64,000 nucleotides of DNA, from contig VYCF01000071.1 of assembly GCA_009844085.1 (NCBI GenBank), positions 78,886 through 142,885 of the forward strand. Reading direction: 5' to 3'. Made by a program: the position numbers and the translations under genes. This DNA comes from Gammaproteobacteria bacterium. Lineage in GTDB: Bacteria; Pseudomonadota; Gammaproteobacteria; Pseudomonadales; Pseudohongiellaceae. The notes below the pieces were generated by a model, which saw nothing but the letters and a program-made list of their open reading frames with translations, was not told the DNA's origin and searched no databases. Below are positions 31,207 to 41,613 of this stretch, one piece after another; the first letter of the stretch is position 1; every line of letters begins with the position of its first letter.

Positions 31207-31274
31207 CGTTAGTCTCGTTTCATCGATTGGATGAGTTCGGTGAGGCGCTAAGTTTAAACGCTGGAGCCCCAAAG

Positions 31275-31302
31275 AAAAAGGGCTCCCGAAGGAGCCCTTT
31301 TT
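31275..31302 (-). terminator. Rho-independent terminator of receptor A
   Basis: AAAAAGGGCTCC (31275-31286), tetraloop CGAA, GGAGCCCTTTTT (31291-31302): a perfect 12-bp stem with A/T flanks, 22 bases past the receptor A stop codon. Its GGGCTC core is shared with the terminator behind receptor B (39108-39133), so the two receptor units look duplicated down to their ends. Confidence 0.9.
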
Positions 31303-31323: not shown

Positions 31324-34305
31324 TCAGAAATCGTAAACCAGTCGAGCGTAGAGGATTCGGCCCATTACATCCTGCAAGCCGCCTACCACGCCCATGAACT
31401 CCGGAGAGCGCTGGGGTTCGCGGTCGAACACGTTGCGCGAGCCGATGGTCATGGCCATCTCGCCGTCGAACAACTCAAGGCCGCGATAGGTATACGCCAG
31501 GTCCATGTCGGTCCAGGCATAGATGCCGGTCTCGAAGATTCCGCCAGGTCGATAGAACCCGCTGAAGAAATCCATGTGCGAGTAGGACGGTCCGTCGTAA
31601 GGCAGGTCGTCGATGTAGTGGACCGTGGAAACCACGGAGTGGTTGCCGTTGGTCCAACTCATGCGCATATTGACCTTCCAGGGCGGCAATTCAGGCGCAG
31701 CGCCGGTGCCCCAGTTGTACTTGCCTGCCACGTCGCGCGGCGGGGATTCCGGGTCGCTTTGCACCAGGAATTCCTGCACGTATGTGGCCTGCAGTCCGAT
31801 GCGGAAATCACCGATATTGTCGAAGCCGAACGTGTAGTTGGCGTCGAAGTCCATGGCGGTGACCTTCACGAATTCCGCGTTGATCGACCCGCGGCAGCAA
31901 ATCTCCAGAATCGTGGCGACATCGCCCCGGGAACGGAGGATTTGCTTGTTGGAGCGGGGATCGTTCACCCAGGCCTGCAACTGGTCCAGCGAAGGCTTGC
32001 CGCTACCGGAAAATCCGGTCGCCTGCCTGAACACCTCGAATTCCTCGTTGAGGATGTCCTGGGCGTTCTTGCCGACGATTCGATTCTGGAAGTCGATCTG
32101 CACCCATGTCGCGCTGAAATCGAAATCGTCGAAGGCGATATCGAAACCGAGCTGCTTGGAGTCGGAAGTCTCATTGTCCAGATTCGGATTGCCGCCGCCG
32201 CAGGTCGTTGTCCAGGCTTCGAAAGTGCTGAACGGGTCGCTCACCGTACCGAGTCCGCAAGTGACCGGATTCAGCAATTGCTCCAGCGTCGGCGCGATGA
32301 ACGCCTCGCCCGCGGTGGCGCGCAAGGTGAGCCAGTCGAGCGGGGCGAAAGTTATGCCATACTCGGGGACCGTAGCGGTCTGGCCGGTACTGAACTCCTC
32401 GTGGCGCACCGCCAGTTCCACTTCAACGGTGTCGAGCACCGGCAGGGCGAACTCGGCGAAATACGCGTCGATGTTTCGCGATCCGCTGCTGGCCCGCTCC
32501 CTGTTCGAGCTGCCAATCCAGGTGACGCCGGCCAGTTCCTCTTCCGAAGGAATGTTGAGGTACTTGTCGTCGCGGAACTGGTAGCCGAGGGCTGCGCCGA
32601 TCGGTCCGCCGGGCAACTCGAATCCGCCCAGCGGAACCTCGCCGTTGATGACGATGTCAACCGTGGTCAACTTGTCCTCGATGACTTCAATGCTGCGTCC
32701 GGCGACCGCGTTCATCACGTGAACCGAATTGTTGTCCTCGGGGTTCACGATCAGGAACGGGCTGTAACAGGCGCTGCGGTCATACACGATATCGCATTGC
32801 AGACCCTGTTGCATTGCGGTGATGTCGTAGTTCTGGTTCGACATGAACTGCAGTTCGCGATAACCGTGGGTATACGCTGCCTCGCCTTGCCAGCCTTCCA
32901 GGAACGGGACCGTGAATTCCGCCTCGAACGAGTAACGGCTGATGTGGTCGATATTGTCGGACAGGTTGGCTGCGTCAGCCGAGTGGCCGTGGGACCGCGT
33001 ATGCGTCTTGTTGATCGGACGCAAGGTTCGCGCCACGACGTCTTCGTACAGCGGAATCCAGCCGTTCGGATGCACGATCGCGTCCATCAGTCCGTCGTTG
33101 TTCAGGTCATCCATGCCGCGATCCGGAAGACCGTCCCCATTCCAGTCGACGCCGAAAAGGTTATCGGCCGGGTCGGAGCAAACGAAGGGGTTGAAACGAT
33201 CGAATCTGCCGCCCGCACAAGCCCGGAAAGGATTGCCCGGGTGTTCGCCGCGAACCGCCGGCAATTCGCCGATGCGCGAGTTGCCCGGATTGGAGGTCGA
33301 GGTGTAAGTCCGCTCGGCTATGCGGGTGTGGTAGCCCTGGAAGGAAAGCGTCAGATCGTCGTTGACGTCGTAGGAGAGATTGGCGAACAACTGCGTTTTT
33401 TCGAGCGGCTCGCGCGCACTGCGCTGGTCGCCGAAATCGAAAAAGCAGCTTGTGCCCAGTCTCATGCCGTAGGCGTTTGCGGCCACGCCGGGGGTATAGT
33501 CTGTTCGTTGCGAGCCCGGAGTACAACTGGGATCGGCCGCTCGACCGCGGCTGCCAGTATACATGCCGTCCTCGTCGCGATTCGGCACGAACCAGTTGCC
33601 CGGCGCGTTCGACGAAATCACCAGGCCCGAGTTGGCCAGCAGGCTCCGCTCGTTCCAGGCCAGCCGGCTGTTCTGGTGAAACTGTCCGGCCAACACCATG
33701 TCGACGCCGCCGAGATCGCCGCCCCAGAGGAACTGCACCGAATGCTCGTCGTAGTCGCCGCGGGTATCGCCTTCGGCGAATGTCTCGATCCTGAACCCGT
33801 CATACGAGGTGTAGGGCACGAAGTTGACGACTCCCGACACCGCCTCGTTACCGTACAGCGCCGCGTTTCCGTCCGCCACGATATCCATTCGCTGGATCGC
33901 GATCGTGGGGATCATGGCGAGAACGTTCTCGTTTACGACGCGCTTGCCGTCGAGCAAGGTCAATGTCGAGCGGGCTCCCAGGCCGCGCAGGTCGACAGCG
34001 GTGGAACGGGAATCCTGTCCCTGGATCGTATTGGTGATCTGGGAAGCGTCGCCGTTCACGAACGTAAGTTGCGACACCACCTCACCGAGGTTCAGGGTGC
34101 CTTCGGCTTCCAGATCTTCTGCAGTAAGAGTAACTACCGAAGATGCCTGATTGAAGCCTTCCGTGCGACGGATATAGGAACCCGTTACGATAACCTCTTC
34201 TACCGTGGCCTCGTCCTGCGCAAGGCTCGTGCCGGCGACCGGCAAGAGCGATAGCGAGACGGCCGCGCAAAGCAGGCTTCGCTTATGTGGAATCTTGAAC
34301 TGCAT
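31324..34305 (-). CDS. TonB-dependent receptor A (currently expressed partner of the inversion switch)
   Basis: 993 residues, complete. The signal peptide ends near GTSLAQ (residues about 20-30), the plug opens with EEVIVTGSYIRRTEGF at residue 36, and the barrel ends in LYARLVYDF. The ribosome binding site GGAGAG is at 34311-34316, five bases before the ATG. A promoter is predicted at 34571-34600. Receptor B (36160-39084) is a paralogue over its full length, for instance LRGLGARSTLTLLDGKR versus LRGLGPRSTLTLLDGKR, QRMDIVADGNAALYGNEAV versus GSAALYGNEAV, and matching C-termini. Codons 36-42 coincide with a 16-bp inverted repeat shared with B. Everything upstream of codon 37 lies in a segment that can be flipped, so expression of A should depend on orientation. 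Substrate unknown. Confidence 0.92.
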   Translation of the reverse strand: MQFKIPHKRSLLCAAVSLSLLPVAGTSLAQDEATVEEVIVTGSYIRRTEGFNQASSVVTLTAEDLEAEGTLNLGEVVSQLTFVNGDASQITNTIQGQDSRSTAVDLRGLGARSTLTLLDGKRVVNENVLAMIPTIAIQRMDIVADGNAALYGNEAVSGVVNFVPYTSYDGFRIETFAEGDTRGDYDEHSVQFLWGGDLGGVDMVLAGQFHQNSRLAWNERSLLANSGLVISSNAPGNWFVPNRDEDGMYTGSRGRAADPSCTPGSQRTDYTPGVAANAYGMRLGTSCFFDFGDQRSAREPLEKTQLFANLSYDVNDDLTLSFQGYHTRIAERTYTSTSNPGNSRIGELPAVRGEHPGNPFRACAGGRFDRFNPFVCSDPADNLFGVDWNGDGLPDRGMDDLNNDGLMDAIVHPNGWIPLYEDVVARTLRPINKTHTRSHGHSADAANLSDNIDHISRYSFEAEFTVPFLEGWQGEAAYTHGYRELQFMSNQNYDITAMQQGLQCDIVYDRSACYSPFLIVNPEDNNSVHVMNAVAGRSIEVIEDKLTTVDIVINGEVPLGGFELPGGPIGAALGYQFRDDKYLNIPSEEELAGVTWIGSSNRERASSGSRNIDAYFAEFALPVLDTVEVELAVRHEEFSTGQTATVPEYGITFAPLDWLTLRATAGEAFIAPTLEQLLNPVTCGLGTVSDPFSTFEAWTTTCGGGNPNLDNETSDSKQLGFDIAFDDFDFSATWVQIDFQNRIVGKNAQDILNEEFEVFRQATGFSGSGKPSLDQLQAWVNDPRSNKQILRSRGDVATILEICCRGSINAEFVKVTAMDFDANYTFGFDNIGDFRIGLQATYVQEFLVQSDPESPPRDVAGKYNWGTGAAPELPPWKVNMRMSWTNGNHSVVSTVHYIDDLPYDGPSYSHMDFFSGFYRPGGIFETGIYAWTDMDLAYTYRGLELFDGEMAMTIGSRNVFDREPQRSPEFMGVVGGLQDVMGRILYARLVYDF
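34183..34210 (-). repeat. Crossover site L (dif-like, inside receptor A)
   Basis: Read on the minus strand: left arm GGCCACGGTAG, 6-bp spacer AAGAGG, right arm TTATCGTAACG. The right-hand 16 bases (AAGAGGTTATCGTAAC, 34184-34199) are an exact inverted copy of 36158-36173. The two arms are imperfect inverted repeats of each other, as in binding sites for a pair of tyrosine recombinase subunits. The site encodes codons 33-42 of receptor A. Confidence 0.75.
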
Positions 34306-34570
34306 AATATCTCTCCATCGAAAATTCGACTGTTTTATGAGCGAAAGCGGCGCGGAATGCCGTTCCGATCAGTTTTTGCGGCGATCTCCCGCGGGGCGAT
34401 TTCTCCGCCGGCGTCCGGGCCGGGCTGCATGACAAAACCAGTACGTACTTGAAGATCAGGGTTCTGTCCTGCGGCGACGGTCATGTCCCGATCGGCCAAT
34501 CCCTCGCCGACCCTGCCGAACCAGACCTTCCGGACGAGAAATCGCCATGCCGGAATCTCCGCATCGCCGC
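34306..34570 (-). other. Long 5' leader of the invertible receptor transcript
   Basis: About 260 bases lie between the predicted transcription start (near 34564) and the receptor A ATG. No convincing gene is here. An 82-codon frame (34583 to 34335) starts inside the -10 region and has no homology I recognise, so I do not call it. The length leaves room for post-transcriptional control, but I see no riboswitch I can name. Near the end is the receptor's ribosome binding site. Confidence 0.45.
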
Positions 34571-34600
34571 ATACTAAAAACATTTATTCGGGAGTGTCAA
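34571..34600 (-). promoter_or_regulatory. Sigma70-type promoter inside the invertible segment
   Basis: Minus strand: perfect -35 TTGACA (34595-34600), 18-base spacer, -10 TAGTAT (34571-34576). It points toward receptor A in the present orientation. It would point toward receptor B after inversion. AT-rich flanks on both sides contrast with the GC-rich surroundings. Confidence 0.6.
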
Positions 34601-34690
34601 ACAAAAAAGCCGACTTCTCGGCACGCAAGTGTTACATGCCCACACATTTACCCGAATTCGCGCCTCGGCTGCGCGGGAAGAGACGCCGGG

Positions 34691-35092
34691 TCATAGATCG
34701 GCCACGGGGTCCGGTTCCGGCATGGCGCCGTCACCGGGCGGGGATTCCGGAGATGCGGGAGGCGCATTGCCGAAGACGCCGGATTCGACTCTAATCAGGC
34801 GGCCGTTCAGGTCGAAAAGTTGGCCGTCGATTCGTTCCAGGCGGTTTTCGACGCGGTCAAGACGATCGTCCACGCGATCAAGGCGGCCGTCTATTCCGTT
34901 GAATCGAATGTCTACAGCATCAAACCGGGCGTTTACTTCGCCACGGAAAGAACTCATTTCGTTGCGGAGCGAACCGGTCATCCATGCCATGGAGCCAACA
35001 GTAGAGCCAATAATCGCCAACACGGCCACGAGCAGGTTCAAGTTTTCAGCTACCGGGCGCCGGGCTGTTTTCACAAGATTGGACATATCCAT
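34691..35092 (-). CDS. Small membrane-anchored coiled-coil protein in the invertible segment
   Basis: 133 residues from ATG 35092 (ATG 35086 two codons in is also possible). One membrane helix (NLLVAVLAIIGSTVGSMAWM, about 18-37) is followed by a repeated coil of the type RFDAVDIRFNGIDGRLDRVDDRLDRVENRLERIDGQL, with a 7-residue period. The end is Pro/Glu/Asp-rich. The layout resembles short phage-hemolysin-like or DUF1640-like coil proteins, but I cannot assign a function. It lies between the recombinase and the receptor promoter on the same strand and would flip with them. A related coil sequence appears at 41094-41264. It may help the receptor, the recombinase, or neither. Confidence 0.6.
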   Translation of the reverse strand: MDMSNLVKTARRPVAENLNLLVAVLAIIGSTVGSMAWMTGSLRNEMSSFRGEVNARFDAVDIRFNGIDGRLDRVDDRLDRVENRLERIDGQLFDLNGRLIRVESGVFGNAPPASPESPPGDGAMPEPDPVADL

Positions 35093-35160
35093 TTCGGGAC
35101 AATCGTAGCAAGTCGCGGTTACATGGCAAGTTTTTGCGAAAAAAACCGCAGGCGGGCGGC

Positions 35161-35184
35161 TTCCGGTCATTTTCCGTAACGCAG
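35161..35184 (+). repeat. 24-bp direct repeat, copy 1 (recombinase 3' end)
   Basis: TTCCGGTCAT, TTTC, CGTAACGCAG: 21 of 24 bases match 41088-41111 in the same orientation. It covers the last codons of the recombinase. The proteins encoded at the two places are unrelated, so shared coding does not explain the match. The CGTAACG part resembles the arms of the inversion sites. Confidence 0.4.
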
Positions 35185-36126
35185 TCGGGCGACGGCGGAG
35201 CGGCCGGCTATTTCCGCCCGGGCGTACCTGGCGGGCATCCCAGGCGACTTCCAGCGCCCGACGGTCTGCAACTCCACGAGTCCTGCGCCGGCGCCGGCCA
35301 GACTCTGCGCCGCACCGACGCGCAAGGAATGCCCTCTGACGGTTCCTTCAATGCCGGCGTCTTTTGCGCATCGTTGAATGATTGCGCGCATGGAATGTGC
35401 GCTGAGTCCATTCTTCAGGACCGCTCCGTCTTCGCGTACCTGGCGGAACAGGGGGCCGTCGTCAATGGCGGCGCACCCAATCCATGCCTGTAAACGGGTC
35501 ACCGTGGAAGCGCCGAGATAGAGTACGGCGCCGAGACCTTCCTGATCCGTTTTGGAGAATCGAATGACAAGGCGGCCCGAACCGTCTTTGCGAGCGGCGA
35601 AGTCACCTGTCTGCAATGCCGAAAGTTCGCCGACTCTAAGCAAGGCGTCGCTCGCGGTGGCGACAATCGCGGCGTCTCGAATACCGGCGAGTTTCTTTCG
35701 TCGCCCGGACGCAATTTCCGCCATTCGGTCGGCTTCTTCCCAGGTAATGCCTTGCGCCTGACCGCGGCCACGTTCTCGCCCGGCGCGGCGGATCCCCGCG
35801 AGAACCCGTTTTGACGATGGGCCATAAGGAACATCCCAGTCGGCTACTTTCGCGGCGAATTGAATGGCGGCGACCACCTGGGAGCAAGTAGCCGGCGAGT
35901 TCCCGGATTCGTGCAACCAGGCAAGGTATTCGGCGAAAGTCTCGTCTGTTAGCTGGTGGTTGCCCAACCATGAATTCAATCTCGCGATCGCACCCTGATA
36001 CGCGCGCCGCGTCGCTGGCGCAACCGAATCGGAGGCAAGCTCGCGCGCGGAATTCGAGAAGCTTTTGCAAAACTCGGATTTGATGCACAAGTTCGGAGAG
36101 AATCCCGAAGAGGTAAGTAACGGCAT
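35167..36126 (-). CDS. Tyrosine recombinase (site-specific integrase), proposed DNA invertase
   Basis: 319 residues from ATG 36126, which has GGAG (36135-36138) eight bases upstream; a TTG six codons earlier is possible. An N-terminal SAM-like core-binding domain (APATRRAYQGAIARLNSWL) is followed by the catalytic domain. Active-site residues are visible in order: Arg in ALLRVGELSAL, Lys in RFSKTDQEG, HxxR in GHSLRVG, Trp in VGRWKSPG and the nucleophile Tyr in PARYARAE. It is complete and likely active. It lies inside the segment bounded by inverted dif-like sites, and a possible -10 (TATAAC, 36153-36158 on the minus strand) overlaps the right-hand site, so the enzyme could influence its own expression. 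No excisionase or other phage genes are nearby. Confidence 0.88.
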   Translation of the reverse strand: MPLLTSSGFSPNLCIKSEFCKSFSNSARELASDSVAPATRRAYQGAIARLNSWLGNHQLTDETFAEYLAWLHESGNSPATCSQVVAAIQFAAKVADWDVPYGPSSKRVLAGIRRAGRERGRGQAQGITWEEADRMAEIASGRRKKLAGIRDAAIVATASDALLRVGELSALQTGDFAARKDGSGRLVIRFSKTDQEGLGAVLYLGASTVTRLQAWIGCAAIDDGPLFRQVREDGAVLKNGLSAHSMRAIIQRCAKDAGIEGTVRGHSLRVGAAQSLAGAGAGLVELQTVGRWKSPGMPARYARAEIAGRSAVARLRYGK

Positions 36127-36146
36127 AACCAAAGCTCCATGCAAAA

Positions 36147-36174
36147 GGTTACGTTATAAGAGGTTATCGTAACC
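36147..36174 (+). repeat. Crossover site R (dif-like, 5' edge of receptor B)
   Basis: Left arm GGTTACGTTAT, 6-bp spacer AAGAGG, right arm TTATCGTAACC. The left arm and the reverse complement of the right arm match at 9 of 11 positions. Bases 36158-36173 are an exact inverted copy of 34184-34199. The match resumes after one mismatch (GGTTC), then falls to about two-thirds identity in the following receptor codons. The TAA at 36157-36159 sits at the arm/spacer border, in frame with receptor B. Confidence 0.78.
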
Positions 36175-39084
36175 GGTTCGTACATCCGCCGTTCGGAGGG
36201 ATTCACCCAGGCGTCCTCGGTAACCCAACTTACCGCCGAGGATTTGGAAGCCGAAGGCACGATGAATCTGGGCGAAGTGGTGCAGAATCTGTCGTTCGTT
36301 AACGGCGGCGCTTCGGCTATCACGAACACCTTCCAGCGCTCCGGCGCGGATTCACGCGCCACCAATATCGACTTGCGAGGATTAGGACCCCGTTCCACGC
36401 TGACCTTGCTGGATGGCAAACGTCTGGTGAACGAAAACGTAAATGCATTGATCCCGACGATCGCCATCCAGCGAATGGACATCGTTGCCGACGGCTCCGC
36501 AGCGCTTTACGGCAACGAAGCCGTGGCCGGCGTGGTCAACTTTGTGCCATACCGCAGCTATGAAGGCTTGCGCATAGATACCTTTGTCGAGCAGGATTCC
36601 CGCGGCGACTATGACGAACATGCGGTTCAGGTGTTATGGGGTGAACAGTTCGGCGACCTGGACCTGGTGCTGGCTGGCGAGTTCCGCCAATCCGGGCGGC
36701 TCGGCTATGACGAGCGGCCCACGCTCGCCAACTCCGGTCTCACCTGGTCGTCCGTCGCACCGGGCAACTACTGGCTGCCGACACGCGACGAGAACGGCGA
36801 ATATACCGGCGAGAGGATCAGGGCGAAGGATCCGAATTGCGGCGCGGAAAGAGACTTTATCACGGCGCACCTGGTGGCGAGCCGTTACGGCTTTGCCCAC
36901 TCCGACGGCGTCAGTTGCATGCTCGAATACGGGGACAATCACAGCTATCGCAATCCGATCGGCGCCAACAAGTTCTTCGCGAACGCGACTTGGGACGTAA
37001 ACGACGATCTCACGCTTTCGCTGCAGGGCTTCGTGACGCGCTACGGCGAATTGGGTTACGGTTCGACTTCCAACCCCGGCAACCAGCGTGTGCGGGAACT
37101 GCCCGCAGTTCGCGGCGAAATGCCGCACAATCCTTTCCGGGCCATGAATGCTCTGGGGCAGCCGCTTTACGCCGTAGACTACAATGCAGACGGCATTCCG
37201 GATCGGGATTCCGACAAGGACCTCAACAACGACGGCTGGCCCGATCCAATCCTGACCCCGAACGGCGGTCTGGTTCCCTGGCTGCCCTTGTACGAAGACG
37301 TGGGGATCCGCGGCATTCGCATTCTCAACAAGTCCATGACGCAGATTTCGGCGCATTCAGCAGACAAGGACAACCTGTCAGACAACATGGACCGACTGCA
37401 CCGCATTACTTTTCAGGGCGATTTCAATGTGCCCTTTATCGAAGGCTGGCAGGGTATGGTCGCCTATACGTACAACTACCGCGAGATCGATTTTATGTCG
37501 AATCAGAATTATGACTTCGACGCGATCGTGCAAGGTCTGGAGTGCGATGTGGTAAACGACCGCGAAGGCTGCTATACACCTTTCTATATTACGGATCCTT
37601 CCCAAGGCACCCATGCCCATGTGCTTGACGCTATCGCGGCGCGGGAACGCGAGCAGGTGGAAGATACGCTGGGCTTGTTGGATATCGTGTTCAATGGCGA
37701 AATTCCGCTATTCGGCTTCGAATTGCCGGGTGGGCCAGTGGCGGCCGCAGTCGGCTACCAATACCGTGACGGCGCGTATAAAAACACGCCATCCGCCGTG
37801 GAGATCAGGGGCGCCCCCTTCATCGGGTCTTCTACTCCCGAAGACATTACCCAAGGCAACCGGGAAGTGGATGCCTTTTTCGCTGAGTTGTCGGTTCCGG
37901 TGTTGGACGACTTGGTGCTGGAATTCGCGGTGCGTCGCGAGGAGTTCAGCACCGGTCAGACTTCCACCGACCCGAAATACGGAATTACCTATGCGCCGCT
38001 GGAATGGCTGACTCTGCGGGCGACCCAGAGCGAAGCGTTTATCGCGCCAACGCTGGAACAGCTTTTTGCTCCCGAAGTGTGCGGTCTGAGTTCCGTGACT
38101 GATCGATTCGGTCCATGGGACGCATTCACCAGCCGCTGTGGGGGCGGAAACCCCAACCTCAAGAACGAGAGTTCCGAATCACAGCAGTTCGGTGTTGACC
38201 TCGTTTTCGACGATTGGGATCTGAGCATCACCTGGAACCAGACGGATTTCGGCAACCGCATCGTGTCCGCACCCGGCCAGTTGATCATGGATGTTGATTT
38301 CCTCAATTTCCAGAACTGGTCCGGCTTCAGCGGCACCGGCGAAGGCCCAGGCCAGCAGCCCAGCCTGGACCAGCTTCGTTCGTGGCTCGCCAGCGGCCTG
38401 TCGGACCCGCGCATCGTGCGCGACCCGGAAGACATACACCAGATTCTGCTGGTGCAAACCGGCAGCACGAACGCGTCCCAGGTTTCCGTAACCGCCTATG
38501 ACATTCAGGGTAACTACAATTTCTCCCTGAACGACTGGGGTAATTTGCGGCTCAACTTGTTGGCCACCTATATCGACGAATTCACGTACCAGAACAACCC
38601 GACGCAGAATGTCCGTCATGCCGAGGGGCTGTACAACATAGCCACGGACGCGGCGCCGGCGCTGCCCGAGTTGAAGGCGAACCTGAGGGCTGTCTGGTCG
38701 ATGGGCAATCACTCGGTGAACGCCACTATCCACTACATCGATTCAGTCGAGTACAAGACCGAAAGCGAGGACGGCGACGGCAATCGAACCTACGTTGGCG
38801 GGCCGACCTACGGCAGTTCGTTCGGCAATCCAGCCGTGGCCAACAGCACCTACAACGTAGGTCCGTGGATTACCCAAGCCGGTATCTTCGCCTGGACTGA
38901 CATGGATATCGCCTACACCTACCGGGGCTTCGAGTTCTGGGACGGCGAGATGGCGTTCACGATCGGCTCGCGCAACGTGTTCGACCGTGAAGCGCAACGT
39001 TCCCCGCTGTTCTCCGGCGTCATCGGCCAGTTGCAGGATCCGCTAGGACGCATGATCTACGGGCGCGTGGTCTACGACTTCTGA
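36160..39084 (+). CDS. TonB-dependent receptor B (silent partner lacking start and signal peptide)
   Basis: 974 codons are open from the base after an in-frame TAA (36157-36159). The frame begins EVIVTGSYIRRSEGFTQ, exactly the point where receptor A's mature plug begins, and runs to a normal barrel end (IYGRVVYDF). No ribosome binding site, start or signal peptide precedes it; the first usable in-frame start (TTG 36244) would lose the TonB-box region and give no exported protein. There are no frameshifts or internal stops, unlike a decaying pseudogene. Joined to receptor A's first 36 codons by inversion, it would give a 1010-residue receptor. Loop regions differ strongly from A (for example around residues 190-260 and 770-830), so the ligand or phage/antibody exposure probably differs. 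Confidence 0.85.
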   Translation, partial: EVIVTGSYIRRSEGFTQASSVTQLTAEDLEAEGTMNLGEVVQNLSFVNGGASAITNTFQRSGADSRATNIDLRGLGPRSTLTLLDGKRLVNENVNALIPTIAIQRMDIVADGSAALYGNEAVAGVVNFVPYRSYEGLRIDTFVEQDSRGDYDEHAVQVLWGEQFGDLDLVLAGEFRQSGRLGYDERPTLANSGLTWSSVAPGNYWLPTRDENGEYTGERIRAKDPNCGAERDFITAHLVASRYGFAHSDGVSCMLEYGDNHSYRNPIGANKFFANATWDVNDDLTLSLQGFVTRYGELGYGSTSNPGNQRVRELPAVRGEMPHNPFRAMNALGQPLYAVDYNADGIPDRDSDKDLNNDGWPDPILTPNGGLVPWLPLYEDVGIRGIRILNKSMTQISAHSADKDNLSDNMDRLHRITFQGDFNVPFIEGWQGMVAYTYNYREIDFMSNQNYDFDAIVQGLECDVVNDREGCYTPFYITDPSQGTHAHVLDAIAAREREQVEDTLGLLDIVFNGEIPLFGFELPGGPVAAAVGYQYRDGAYKNTPSAVEIRGAPFIGSSTPEDITQGNREVDAFFAELSVPVLDDLVLEFAVRREEFSTGQTSTDPKYGITYAPLEWLTLRATQSEAFIAPTLEQLFAPEVCGLSSVTDRFGPWDAFTSRCGGGNPNLKNESSESQQFGVDLVFDDWDLSITWNQTDFGNRIVSAPGQLIMDVDFLNFQNWSGFSGTGEGPGQQPSLDQLRSWLASGLSDPRIVRDPEDIHQILLVQTGSTNASQVSVTAYDIQGNYNFSLNDWGNLRLNLLATYIDEFTYQNNPTQNVRHAEGLYNIATDAAPALPELKANLRAVWSMGNHSVNATIHYIDSVEYKTESEDGDGNRTYVGGPTYGSSFGNPAVANSTYNVGPWITQAGIFAWTDMDIAYTYRGFEFWDGEMAFTIGSRNVFDREAQRSPLFSGVIGQLQDPLGRMIYGRVVYDF

Positions 39085-39107: not shown

Positions 39108-39133
39108 AAAAGGGCTCTTTAGGGAGCCCTTTT
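39108..39133 (+). terminator. Rho-independent terminator of receptor B
   Basis: AAAAGGGCTC (39108-39117), loop TTTAGG, GAGCCCTTTT (39124-39133), 23 bases past the stop. It mirrors the terminator behind receptor A. Retention of a terminator by a silent gene supports occasional transcription. Confidence 0.85.
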
Positions 39134-39182
39134 CATTTGCTGAGCGAAATTCAGGGTTACCGGCCAGTCAGCGAAACGATCT

Positions 39183-39717: not shown

Positions 39718-41106
39718 GTGGACGCCCGGTTTCTTGCCCACAACAGCCATCTCATCGATTCGCGGCGATTCGCCGAGACCGATCCGCAACTCAGGCACCT
39801 GGCCAGCCGGCCCCTTCGGCACCGCTCATCCCTGCTCGATCGGTTACCGACGTCGGTTCCGGGAATTTACAGCCTCGGCGGCGGCAGGCAGACAGGCAAA
39901 TCCACGCTGCTCAAGCAGTGGATGAACGAACGTCTGCGCGACGGCGTTCGGCCCGAAGCGATCGCGTACTTCTCCGGAGAACTGATCGACGACCACCACA
40001 GCCTGTTGCTGCACATGGAGGATCAACTCAACGCCGCACCGGATACGGGGATGAATTTTCTGATCGTGGATGAAATCACTTATATCCGCGACTGGGACAA
40101 GGCCGTGAAATACGCCGCCGACGCCGGATGGCTGGCGCGAACCGCGCTCATGATCACGAGTTCGGATCTGGCGTACGTACAGGAAGCAAGGATGCGGTTT
40201 CCGGGCCGGCGGGGGAGCGCCGAGGTCGTCGACTTCCATCTCCATCCGCTCTCGTTCAGGGAATTTCTCGCGCTGGAAGGCGGGGTGAGCGATCTGGAGG
40301 GCAGTCTCGATGAGCCCGCGCGAATCCCGGCTCAAACTGTAGAAGCCGTATTCGACGCGTTTTCCCGCTATTTGCTGCATGGCGGCTACCTCACGGCCAT
40401 AAACGATCTGACCGAATACGGAACGGTGCGCCGCGGCGCCCTGGCCACGCACTCCGATTGGATTCGTGGCGATGTGCTGAAACGCGGTCGGCGCGAGACG
40501 TACCTGCGGGAGATTCTGTCGGCGATCGTCACCCGATACGGATCCCAGGTGACATGGAACGCGCTGGCCCGCGACCTGTCTATCGATCATCCTGGAACCG
40601 TGGCCGAATACGTGGCGCTGCTTGAGCGCATGGACGCCGTGTGCGTATTGTCCGCCTTGCGGGAGGACAAACTGACCGGGGCGCCGAAGAAGGCCAAAAA
40701 ACTGATGTTCAACGACCCGTTCATCCTGCACGCGGTGCGGGGCTGGCTGACGCCGGGAGACGATCCTTTCGCGAGTCAGATTCGCCCTGCGAGCGAAGAC
40801 CCGCATTGGGCTTCGAGAATAGTCGAGGCGTGTGTCGCCAGTCATCTGCGCCGCTTTTACCCGACCTTTTATATAAAGGCGCAAGCGGAAGTGGACGTTG
40901 CCTATGTGCGCGGCGAGCGTTTCTGGCCGGTGGAAGTCAAGTGGAGCAATCAGCTTCGGCCGAAAGCACTGAAACAGATCGCCCGCTATGCCAACGGCGA
41001 AATCTGGAGCAAGGACCGGCGCCCCGGCGAAATTGGCGGTGTCAAAGTCATGCCCCTGCCGATTCAACTATTGCGCCTGGGTCCGGATTCCGGTCATCTC
41101 TCGTAA
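39718..41106 (+). CDS. AAA_14/DUF4143-family ATPase
   Basis: 462 residues from GTG 39718 (no strong ribosome binding site). Walker A is GGGRQTGKSTLL (about residue 54), Walker B is FLIVDEITYIRDW, and a sensor-like segment follows (ALMITSSDLAYV). The C-terminal DUF4143 part ends in a nuclease-like pattern, VDVAYVRGERFWPVEVKWSN, with the D and E-x-K residues of the PD-(D/E)xK fold. The family is widespread, often mobile, and has no settled role; links to stress or toxin-like functions are only suggested. It lies in the accessory region with a broken relative next door, and its 3' end overlaps the minus-strand coil gene by 13 bases. Confidence 0.85.
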   Translation: MDARFLAHNSHLIDSRRFAETDPQLRHLASRPLRHRSSLLDRLPTSVPGIYSLGGGRQTGKSTLLKQWMNERLRDGVRPEAIAYFSGELIDDHHSLLLHMEDQLNAAPDTGMNFLIVDEITYIRDWDKAVKYAADAGWLARTALMITSSDLAYVQEARMRFPGRRGSAEVVDFHLHPLSFREFLALEGGVSDLEGSLDEPARIPAQTVEAVFDAFSRYLLHGGYLTAINDLTEYGTVRRGALATHSDWIRGDVLKRGRRETYLREILSAIVTRYGSQVTWNALARDLSIDHPGTVAEYVALLERMDAVCVLSALREDKLTGAPKKAKKLMFNDPFILHAVRGWLTPGDDPFASQIRPASEDPHWASRIVEACVASHLRRFYPTFYIKAQAEVDVAYVRGERFWPVEVKWSNQLRPKALKQIARYANGEIWSKDRRPGEIGGVKVMPLPIQLLRLGPDSGHLS

Positions 41107-41277: not shown

Positions 41278-41613
41278 TCATTCGGGCTCGCTCTCTCCAC
41301 CGGGCGGCTGCTCGGCGACCGCTTCGTAGGCCGCGTCCCCGTTGAGCACACCCTCAACCCGCCCCAGCCGTTTGCTCAATTTCCCCATTTCTTTGCGCAG
41401 GTCATTCATTTCCTTGCGCAGTTCGTTCATTTCCTTGCGCAAGTTGTCCTTCATTTCGGACATCTCCTTGCGCAGGTCGTCCTTCAGTTCGGACATTTCC
41501 TTGCGCAAGTCGGTGCTTAACGTGTGAATTTTCGCCTGCAAGTAAATTGCCAGCAATAATATCGCCCCAAGGATGAGGCCCTGCTCGGCAAATGCGTTGA
41601 CGATGGCGTTCAT
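41278..41613 (-). CDS. Membrane-anchored coiled-coil protein with LRKEM repeats
   Basis: 111 residues. One membrane helix (LILGAILLLAIYLQAKI, about 13-29) is followed by five copies of LRKEM spaced 11, 11, 7 and 7 residues apart, a continuous charged coiled coil, then an acidic tail. The DNA repeats behind it (41388-41520) are near-identical and could expand or contract by slippage. The layout matches the coil protein in the invertible segment (membrane helix, then coil, then acidic end) without close identity. Function unknown. The start has an upstream GGAGT. Confidence 0.65.
   Translation of the reverse strand: MNAIVNAFAEQGLILGAILLLAIYLQAKIHTLSTDLRKEMSELKDDLRKEMSEMKDNLRKEMNELRKEMNDLRKEMGKLSKRLGRVEGVLNGDAAYEAVAEQPPGGESEPE

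Follow-up and report, generated by a model that had tools for sequence, protein, structure and literature searches.

How a receptor gene with a long intact reading frame and no start of its own could come to be expressed is the question raised by a locus in a 64,000-nucleotide stretch of contig VYCF01000071.1 (assembly GCA_009844085.1, positions 78,886 to 142,885), hereafter the window, from a gammaproteobacterial genome of 3.43 Mb (G000). Two genes for TonB-dependent receptors, A and B (56% protein identity), point outward from a segment that encodes a tyrosine recombinase. We read the locus as a two-way Cre-type inversion switch that gives a promoter, a leader and a signal-peptide-coding start (the head) to A or to B, not to both, and assign this reading a probability of about 0.82. 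The observation itself, i.e., the anatomy, the in-frame product and the sites, is confirmed. The reading as an inversion switch is supported by the anatomy, by a second species with a matched spacer change, by selection on B and by further predicted switches. That inversion occurs, that it is reversible and helper-free and that it serves to vary surface receptors is what we infer from these data; a use against phages or for different substrates would be a guess. As relatives, 84 genomes of the genus were surveyed, including G000 itself and G043, in which locus L014 repeats the layout; judging from the isolate names, the sources are presumably sponge-associated metagenome-assembled genomes (MAGs). 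The composing features are as follows (window coordinates, strand, description).

31324..34305, minus: receptor A, a complete TonB-dependent receptor of 993 amino acids, on in the assembly; Pfam PF07715 (Plug) and PF00593 (barrel), both above cut-off
34198..34305, minus: head of A within the segment, made up of its start and 36 opening codons, which by eye resemble a signal peptide; a head of this A type is also kept in relatives
34184..34209, minus: predicted lox-like recombination site A, GCCACGGTAG / AAGAGG / TTATCGTAAC; arms mirror at 6 of 10 bases
34571..34600, minus: predicted promoter of A, TTGACA-18-TAGTAT, 10 of 12 consensus bases; both hexamers conserved in 8 of 8 aligned A loci
35167..36126, minus: Cre-type tyrosine recombinase, 319 amino acids from ATG (325 from TTG 36144)
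36148..36173, plus: predicted lox-like recombination site B, GTTACGTTAT / AAGAGG / TTATCGTAAC; arms mirror at 8 of 10 bases
34194..36163, no strand: predicted invertible segment, spacers included, 1970 bp
36157..36159, plus: in-frame TAA stop that immediately precedes the headless body; the corresponding stop in G043 is TAG
36160..39084, plus: receptor B body, 974 codons, without start or signal, off in the assembly; a TonB-dependent receptor by Pfam

The receptors, recombinase, coil gene, promoter, leader and head named in the original prediction were all found in place, as was the start-less frame of B, open for 974 codons right after the TAA. Both predicted spacers (34194-34199 at site A and 36158-36163 at site B) read AAGAGG toward the receptor bodies. 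In the mechanism that we propose, the recombinase would bind two inverted lox-like sites whose outer arm, TTATCGTAAC, consists of codons of the receptor motif EEVIVTG, and strand exchange in the identical asymmetric spacer would invert 1.97 kb. B would then comprise the 36 codons of A followed by its own 974, and A would sit behind an in-frame stop. Inverting the segment in silico, both spacers included, indeed gives MQFKIPHKRS...ATVE/EVIVTGS..., a product of 36 + 974 = 1010 amino acids in frame to the end of B, just as had been foreseen for a crossover at AAGAGG; the same operation leaves A headless behind ...GTTACGTTATAAGAGG with an in-frame TAA. From the spacer onward, the two receptors share 21 of 22 bases, the exact run common to both at the junction being 16 bases, and a 191-base repeat starting at the site is 75% complementary. 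When pairs were sought under fixed criteria (1-4 kb between sites, 20 of 24 matches, a 6-base spacer common to both and two 9-base arms), sites A and B proved to be the only inverted pair in the window, with no direct pair; 20 simulated windows pooled hold one inverted and no direct pair. More than two receptor bodies with copies of the site were not found in the genome, where the core occurs in two exact copies and at one place with two mismatches.

How much of the site is explained by receptor homology was judged from relatives without this recombinase. Over 30 bases at the core, A and B agree at 29 positions in G082, 30 in G045 and 26 each in G044 and G042, compared with 26 in the window. 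The 22-base match is therefore rejected as proof of a switch, and the argument that paralogue similarity does not explain it is weakened, though the 21 matches themselves stand. Because relatives without the recombinase share them, the outer arm and spacer, which are receptor codons, very likely pre-date the switch. Receptor homology does not account for the inner arm of site B, which lies outside receptor sequence and has 8 of its 10 bases in mirror match with the outer arm. G043 retains the TACGTTATA of this arm, though the sequence above it is unrelated. A search of the 84 genomes for CGTTATARGAGGTTATCGTAAC with up to three mismatches returned 11 places in nine genomes (four places with the backward control), and the only two exact places are the B sites of G000 and G043.

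The recombinase is, by the combined sequence and fold comparisons, a Cre-type tyrosine recombinase. A profile built from 20 relatives matches 17 PDB sequences at E <= 1e-5, every one of them Cre or its derivative Tre. Ranks 1 to 33 of a fold comparison are likewise all Cre or Tre, for a structure model of modest quality (mean pLDDT 67.9). All 20 aligned recombinases have R170, K198, H272, R275, W298 and Y307, and we take these six, partly from the PDB alignment, to be the Cre catalytic residues. This R-K-H-R-W-Y set sits in a Cre-like context (GHSxRVGAA, and W instead of H). Pfam and NCBIfam return Phage_integrase, with XerA, XerC and XerD below threshold. An assignment to Xer/dif is rejected, as XerC and XerD score 36.2 and 36.1 bits against cut-offs of 335 and 330 and the nearest PDB sequences and folds are Cre or Tre. 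Since the enzyme is Cre-type and not Xer, the sites, rightly predicted as an inverted pair, are better called lox-like than dif-like. Cre needs no helper proteins and requires matching spacers, and the spacer matching observed here fits the latter need. The recombinase had also been called complete, which it is; its start was refined to ATG 36126 over TTG 36144, and this is probably the true one because 18 of 18 aligned database homologues begin there. At 36154-36159 on the minus strand, TATAAC is a possible -10 box of the recombinase gene overlapping its own site B, an overlap that might permit self-repression. In the scan of the 84 genomes, seven have a match at E <= 1e-15, of which only G000 and G043 have the window type; these two recombinases are 65-66% identical, and the next best match in the genus is 39% identical to that of the window. 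Among metagenome sequences, a 55-kb contig encodes a recombinase (P0001) with 97% identity.

G043 repeats the layout with a complete A (97% identical to that of the window), the recombinase and a B whose frame of 960 codons opens immediately behind a TAG. Both G043 sites carry the spacer AGGAGG, compared with AAGAGG in the window. One promoter-like site is present, that of A (0.8 expected). The small coil-like open reading frame (ORF) of G043 differs from that of the window by eye and has no Pfam match. The B bodies of the two species are 65-67% identical, versus 91-94% between window B and the B of G082, G042, G044 and G045, so the silent slot of G043 holds another receptor. The recombinases differ about as much as the B bodies do. 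A G043-type B body (97.7%) with a head occurs in P0122, where the head fits the A-type and the B-type about equally.

The history of the locus can be read from the same relatives. In G082, G044 and G045, A and B are divergent neighbours, each with its own head, and no recombinase of the window type was found in these three in the 84-genome scan; G042 has A and B on separate contigs, with both receptors readable. Because both receptors are headed in relatives without the recombinase and the window head is of the A type, B has lost its promoter and head. G044 and G045, which lack this recombinase, likewise have a coil ORF upstream of A. Therefore, only the recombinase was clearly added, and the coil protein is rejected as part of an inserted unit. 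A sharp homology break at 34603 is equally rejected as marking the edge of an insertion: just above the -35 box, species that lack the recombinase also diverge from one another in the region upstream of A.

Despite the loss of its head, B does not evolve as a neutral sequence. The pairwise ratios of nonsynonymous to synonymous substitution rates (dN/dS) between window B and the four headed orthologues are 0.047, 0.048, 0.066 and 0.052, and those of the headed orthologues among themselves range from 0.021 to 0.057. Lineage-specific changes number 24 amino-acid and 94 silent changes in window B, versus 5 and 59 in headed B of G082 and 5 and 55 in that of G044 (pooled 10 and 114). Window A has nine amino-acid and 44 silent changes, which does not differ from window B (p 0.68) but does from A of G043 (0 and 34; p 0.011). 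B is thus under purifying selection but a little less constrained than its headed orthologues, and the same may be true of the window lineage as a whole.

A second predicted switch lies elsewhere in the same genome (G000:C31, locus L016, 4863-11824), where a recombinase 36% identical to that of the window is found between two divergent headed TonB receptors, C and D. Alone against the PDB, this recombinase matches Cre at 4e-26 and XerD at 0.002. Inverted sites occur upstream of both starts (C side CGATAA-TTCCAG-TTATCA, D side CGATAA-TTCCAG-TTATCG). The corresponding sites in G050 (L131) are CGATAA-TTGCAG-TTATCG and TGATAT-TTGCAG-TTATCG; the two spacers are thus the same within a genome and differ between the two genomes. 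A single promoter-like site lies next to C in either segment and is directed toward it, TTGACT-17-TATCCT in G000 (0.7 expected) and TTGACT-17-TATTCT in G050 (0.2 expected). Near-full-length recombinases of the C/D type are present in three of the 84 genomes (G000, G050 and G041), with a broken copy in G055. The G041 unit has inverted sites and, by eye, a similar outward promoter; on its left the contig ends, and its right side lacks a receptor. The C/D type would be a plain promoter inversion, while the window type would move the coding head too.

To place both types in a wider context, GTDB species genomes yielded 206 relatives of the recombinase, the best 80 of which were retained. The 90 loci examined comprise 79 of these 80 and 11 others (L020 is on the contig of L014, and L015 on that of L062); 76 are readable on both sides and 14 on one side. 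In the Rhodobacteraceae MAG COS2_bin_10, recombinases occur between divergent porin paralogues at L049 (1-3700) and L051 (8859-12500), the porin family PF13609 being assigned by Pfam for L051 and by similarity for L049. Inverted sites TTCCGATA...TTATCGGAA lie upstream of both starts at both loci, with spacers that differ between L049 and L051. The arm core TTATCG beside the spacer, exact or one base off, recurs in the window, C/D and porin sites. A family search of 295 genomes at E <= 1e-60 for further porin switches returned only the already known MAG (1 of 295). Inverted site pairs are found at 11 of the 90 loci and direct pairs at none. Six loci (the window, L014, L016, L131, L049 and L051) have divergent paralogues, which favour inverted matches, and the matches listed for L016, L131 and L051 are coding repeats; with the six left out for this reason, inverted pairs remain at 5 of 84 loci (L017, L052, L054, L071 and L136) and direct pairs at 0 of 84. 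Of 71 recombinases offered, 66 entered a tree in which each of the three switch types has a branch of its own (support 100/100, 100/99 and 100/100), the deeper order being partly weak and long branches meeting near the C/D type. The viral-contig scan gave one recombinase locus, at 27% identity. A perfect lox-like dyad, ACCTACGATAA-TGCTCA-TTATCGTAGGT, lies upstream of a recombinase that is only distantly related (28%), on a contig of 3.1 kb in G024 (L134, 1344-1371). A single recombinase flanked by inverted TTAACTCGCGTTA-like sites that share one spacer forms a compact, possibly mobile unit next to unrelated genes at the following loci.

L052, 818-1985
L054, 9784-10950
L061, 9849-11004
L071, 5338-6494
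L136, 7588-8751

Within the window, the remaining features of the locus and its borders are these.

34434..34450, minus: leader palindrome AAGTACGTACTGG, which would move with the head
34609..34622, minus: weak terminator-like stem between the coil gene and the A promoter; two found in the region versus 2.7 expected
34691..35170, minus: coil protein of 159 amino acids from the ORF list, its start overlapping the recombinase stop
31270..31301, minus: terminator-like repeat 3' of A, by eye; pairs with the repeat at 39108..39139
39108..39139, plus: matching terminator-like repeat 3' of B, by eye

For the leader palindrome, AGTACGTACTGG is exact in six of eight aligned A loci and one base off in the other two. 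Across the genome, the palindrome has one exact place and one with two mismatches, versus three places for the backward control; it is a possible candidate operator that would travel with the head. The coil protein has no Pfam or NCBIfam match. Small coil proteins (in the window at 34691-35170 and 41278-41613) recur beside receptors here, at the C/D locus and in relatives. An AAA_14/DUF4143 ATPase (39718-41106) adjoins receptor B.

Several observations weigh against an inversion switch, and some of them speak for a rival account in which the recombinase landed beside B and removed its promoter and head, so that B is dying, nothing switches and the likeness of the sites is receptor homology. 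The core codons are common to A and B in relatives without this recombinase, B has lost what its orthologues have, and window B carries more amino-acid changes than headed B genes (Fisher p 0.009). Moreover, no flipped copy is found in the window or the G043 assembly, so that comparing related genomes returned the predicted layout in a second species and no inverted junction, A being on in both; the C/D loci are also in one orientation each. Further points against the switch are that the arms of site A mirror each other poorly, that the TATAAC box could account for the conservation of the site B inner arm without recombination, and that promoter calls are consensus matches near the chance rate (two in the region, one being that of A, versus 0.9 expected). 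The spacer match in G043 concerns one base in two species and could, taken alone, be due to chance, the two spacers of L051 differ at one base, and divergent paralogues flank the recombinase in only 6 of the 76 loci readable on both sides. Nonetheless, a dying B is difficult to reconcile with 974 and 960 intact codons in two species with different B bodies, a dN/dS of about 0.05, a stop codon directly before the core in both species and a spacer that has changed at both sites in G043; related recombinases, too, sit between divergent receptor or porin pairs. We therefore regard this account as unlikely.

Less probable still is that the enzyme serves as integrase for a small mobile unit inserting at lox-like sites, with inversion as an unselected by-product. 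Such an integrase would fit the compact units at L052, L054, L061, L071 and L136, which have inverted TTAACTCGCGTTA sites and unrelated neighbours, and the G041 unit without a receptor on its readable side. Excision, however, needs direct sites, whereas the sites are inverted and, under the site criteria applied, none of the 90 loci has a direct pair of the kind expected to flank the integrase of an integrative element with att sites. The head-swapping geometry is, moreover, conserved in two species. Finally, ordinary homologous recombination might exchange the diverged paralogues A and B with no part played by the recombinase, since inverted paralogues of 56% protein identity do flank the segment. 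Yet, DNA similarity is 71-75% over the five longest arms, the exact run at the junction is just 16 bases and every switch-like locus has a recombinase gene between its paired genes, which makes this explanation very improbable. The two-way Cre-type inversion switch thus remains the preferred reading.

Known inversion systems share parts of this arrangement. Cre/loxP of phage P1 resolves dimers and has an 8-base lox spacer. The window system resembles it in recombinase family, in catalytic residues and in sites whose two inverted arms flank an asymmetric spacer required to match, and differs in the predicted inversion of a chromosomal segment and a spacer of six bases as drawn. In the sap locus of Campylobacter fetus, a promoter segment flips between divergent surface-protein genes, as would be the case here, but this is RecA-dependent and involves no local recombinase. 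The gene for Salmonella Hin lies inside the flipped segment, as the recombinase gene does here; Hin, however, is a serine recombinase and moves only a promoter. For Ureaplasma mba/UU172, the sections of PMC3599477 on this locus describe opposed surface-protein genes and short inverted repeats, of which one lies in the 5' sequence of UU172, and an inversion that changes the product; a figure legend and a cited title indicate that N-terminal parts are exchanged, with XerC as the suggested enzyme. As described there, that system concerns mollicute antigens and a Xer-named enzyme encoded elsewhere, whereas here TonB receptors of a gammaproteobacterium are served by a Cre-type gene inside the segment. 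In the SusC/SusD (RagA/B) shufflons of Bacteroides fragilis (region EE, Tsr0667), inverted repeats overlap the start codon, according to passages of PMC5729914 and PMC4747536. In these accounts, the likeness lies in TonB-linked outer-membrane receptors and recombinase-driven inversion (here predicted), but the shufflons bring several gene pairs to an invertible promoter under a master enzyme for many regions. In the window, by contrast, two fixed bodies lie outside and the head and promoter inside, with one local enzyme and two exact sites in the genome. Membership of the SusC/RagA family was not found with NCBIfam (A scores 18.9 bits for TIGR04056 versus a cut-off of 368, and B is not among the matches). 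TonB-dependent receptors are among the genes beside one gut inverton group in the relevant part of PMC11892184, and therefore inversion beside such receptors is, to that extent, already known in gut bacteria; the text of PMC5903667 has no occurrence of TonB. No report of a TonB-receptor inversion switch in Gammaproteobacteria, including sponge-associated ones, was found in the open-licence literature, most subscription papers being outside this scope. Limited as it is, this search agrees with the original prediction, to which the arrangement was unfamiliar in this class. On our best reading, the system is of a known kind, in a new form that would move the signal-peptide-coding start along with the promoter.

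More tentatively, and at somewhat less than even odds, Cre-type recombinases may constitute a portable outer-membrane-protein switch across Proteobacteria, with at least three separate enzyme branches placed between divergent paralogous receptors or porins and choosing one of them. On this reading, any receptor of the family could serve as the silent body in the window type, as the half-site is coding sequence of the conserved motif EEVIVTG; G043 has a nearly identical A and, in the same slot, a different B body and a 65% identical recombinase. If the inversion is true, it would provide single-locus either-or receptor control by a self-contained Cre-type enzyme, which would move the signal-peptide-coding start as a cassette, in a lineage with dozens of TonB receptors (eight relatives have 36-55 TonB plug domains each). 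It would extend outer-membrane receptor inversion, best known from Bacteroides, to Proteobacteria and would supply natural lox-like sites with differing spacers. Phage escape or substrate switching in such bacteria would then become directly testable from long reads.

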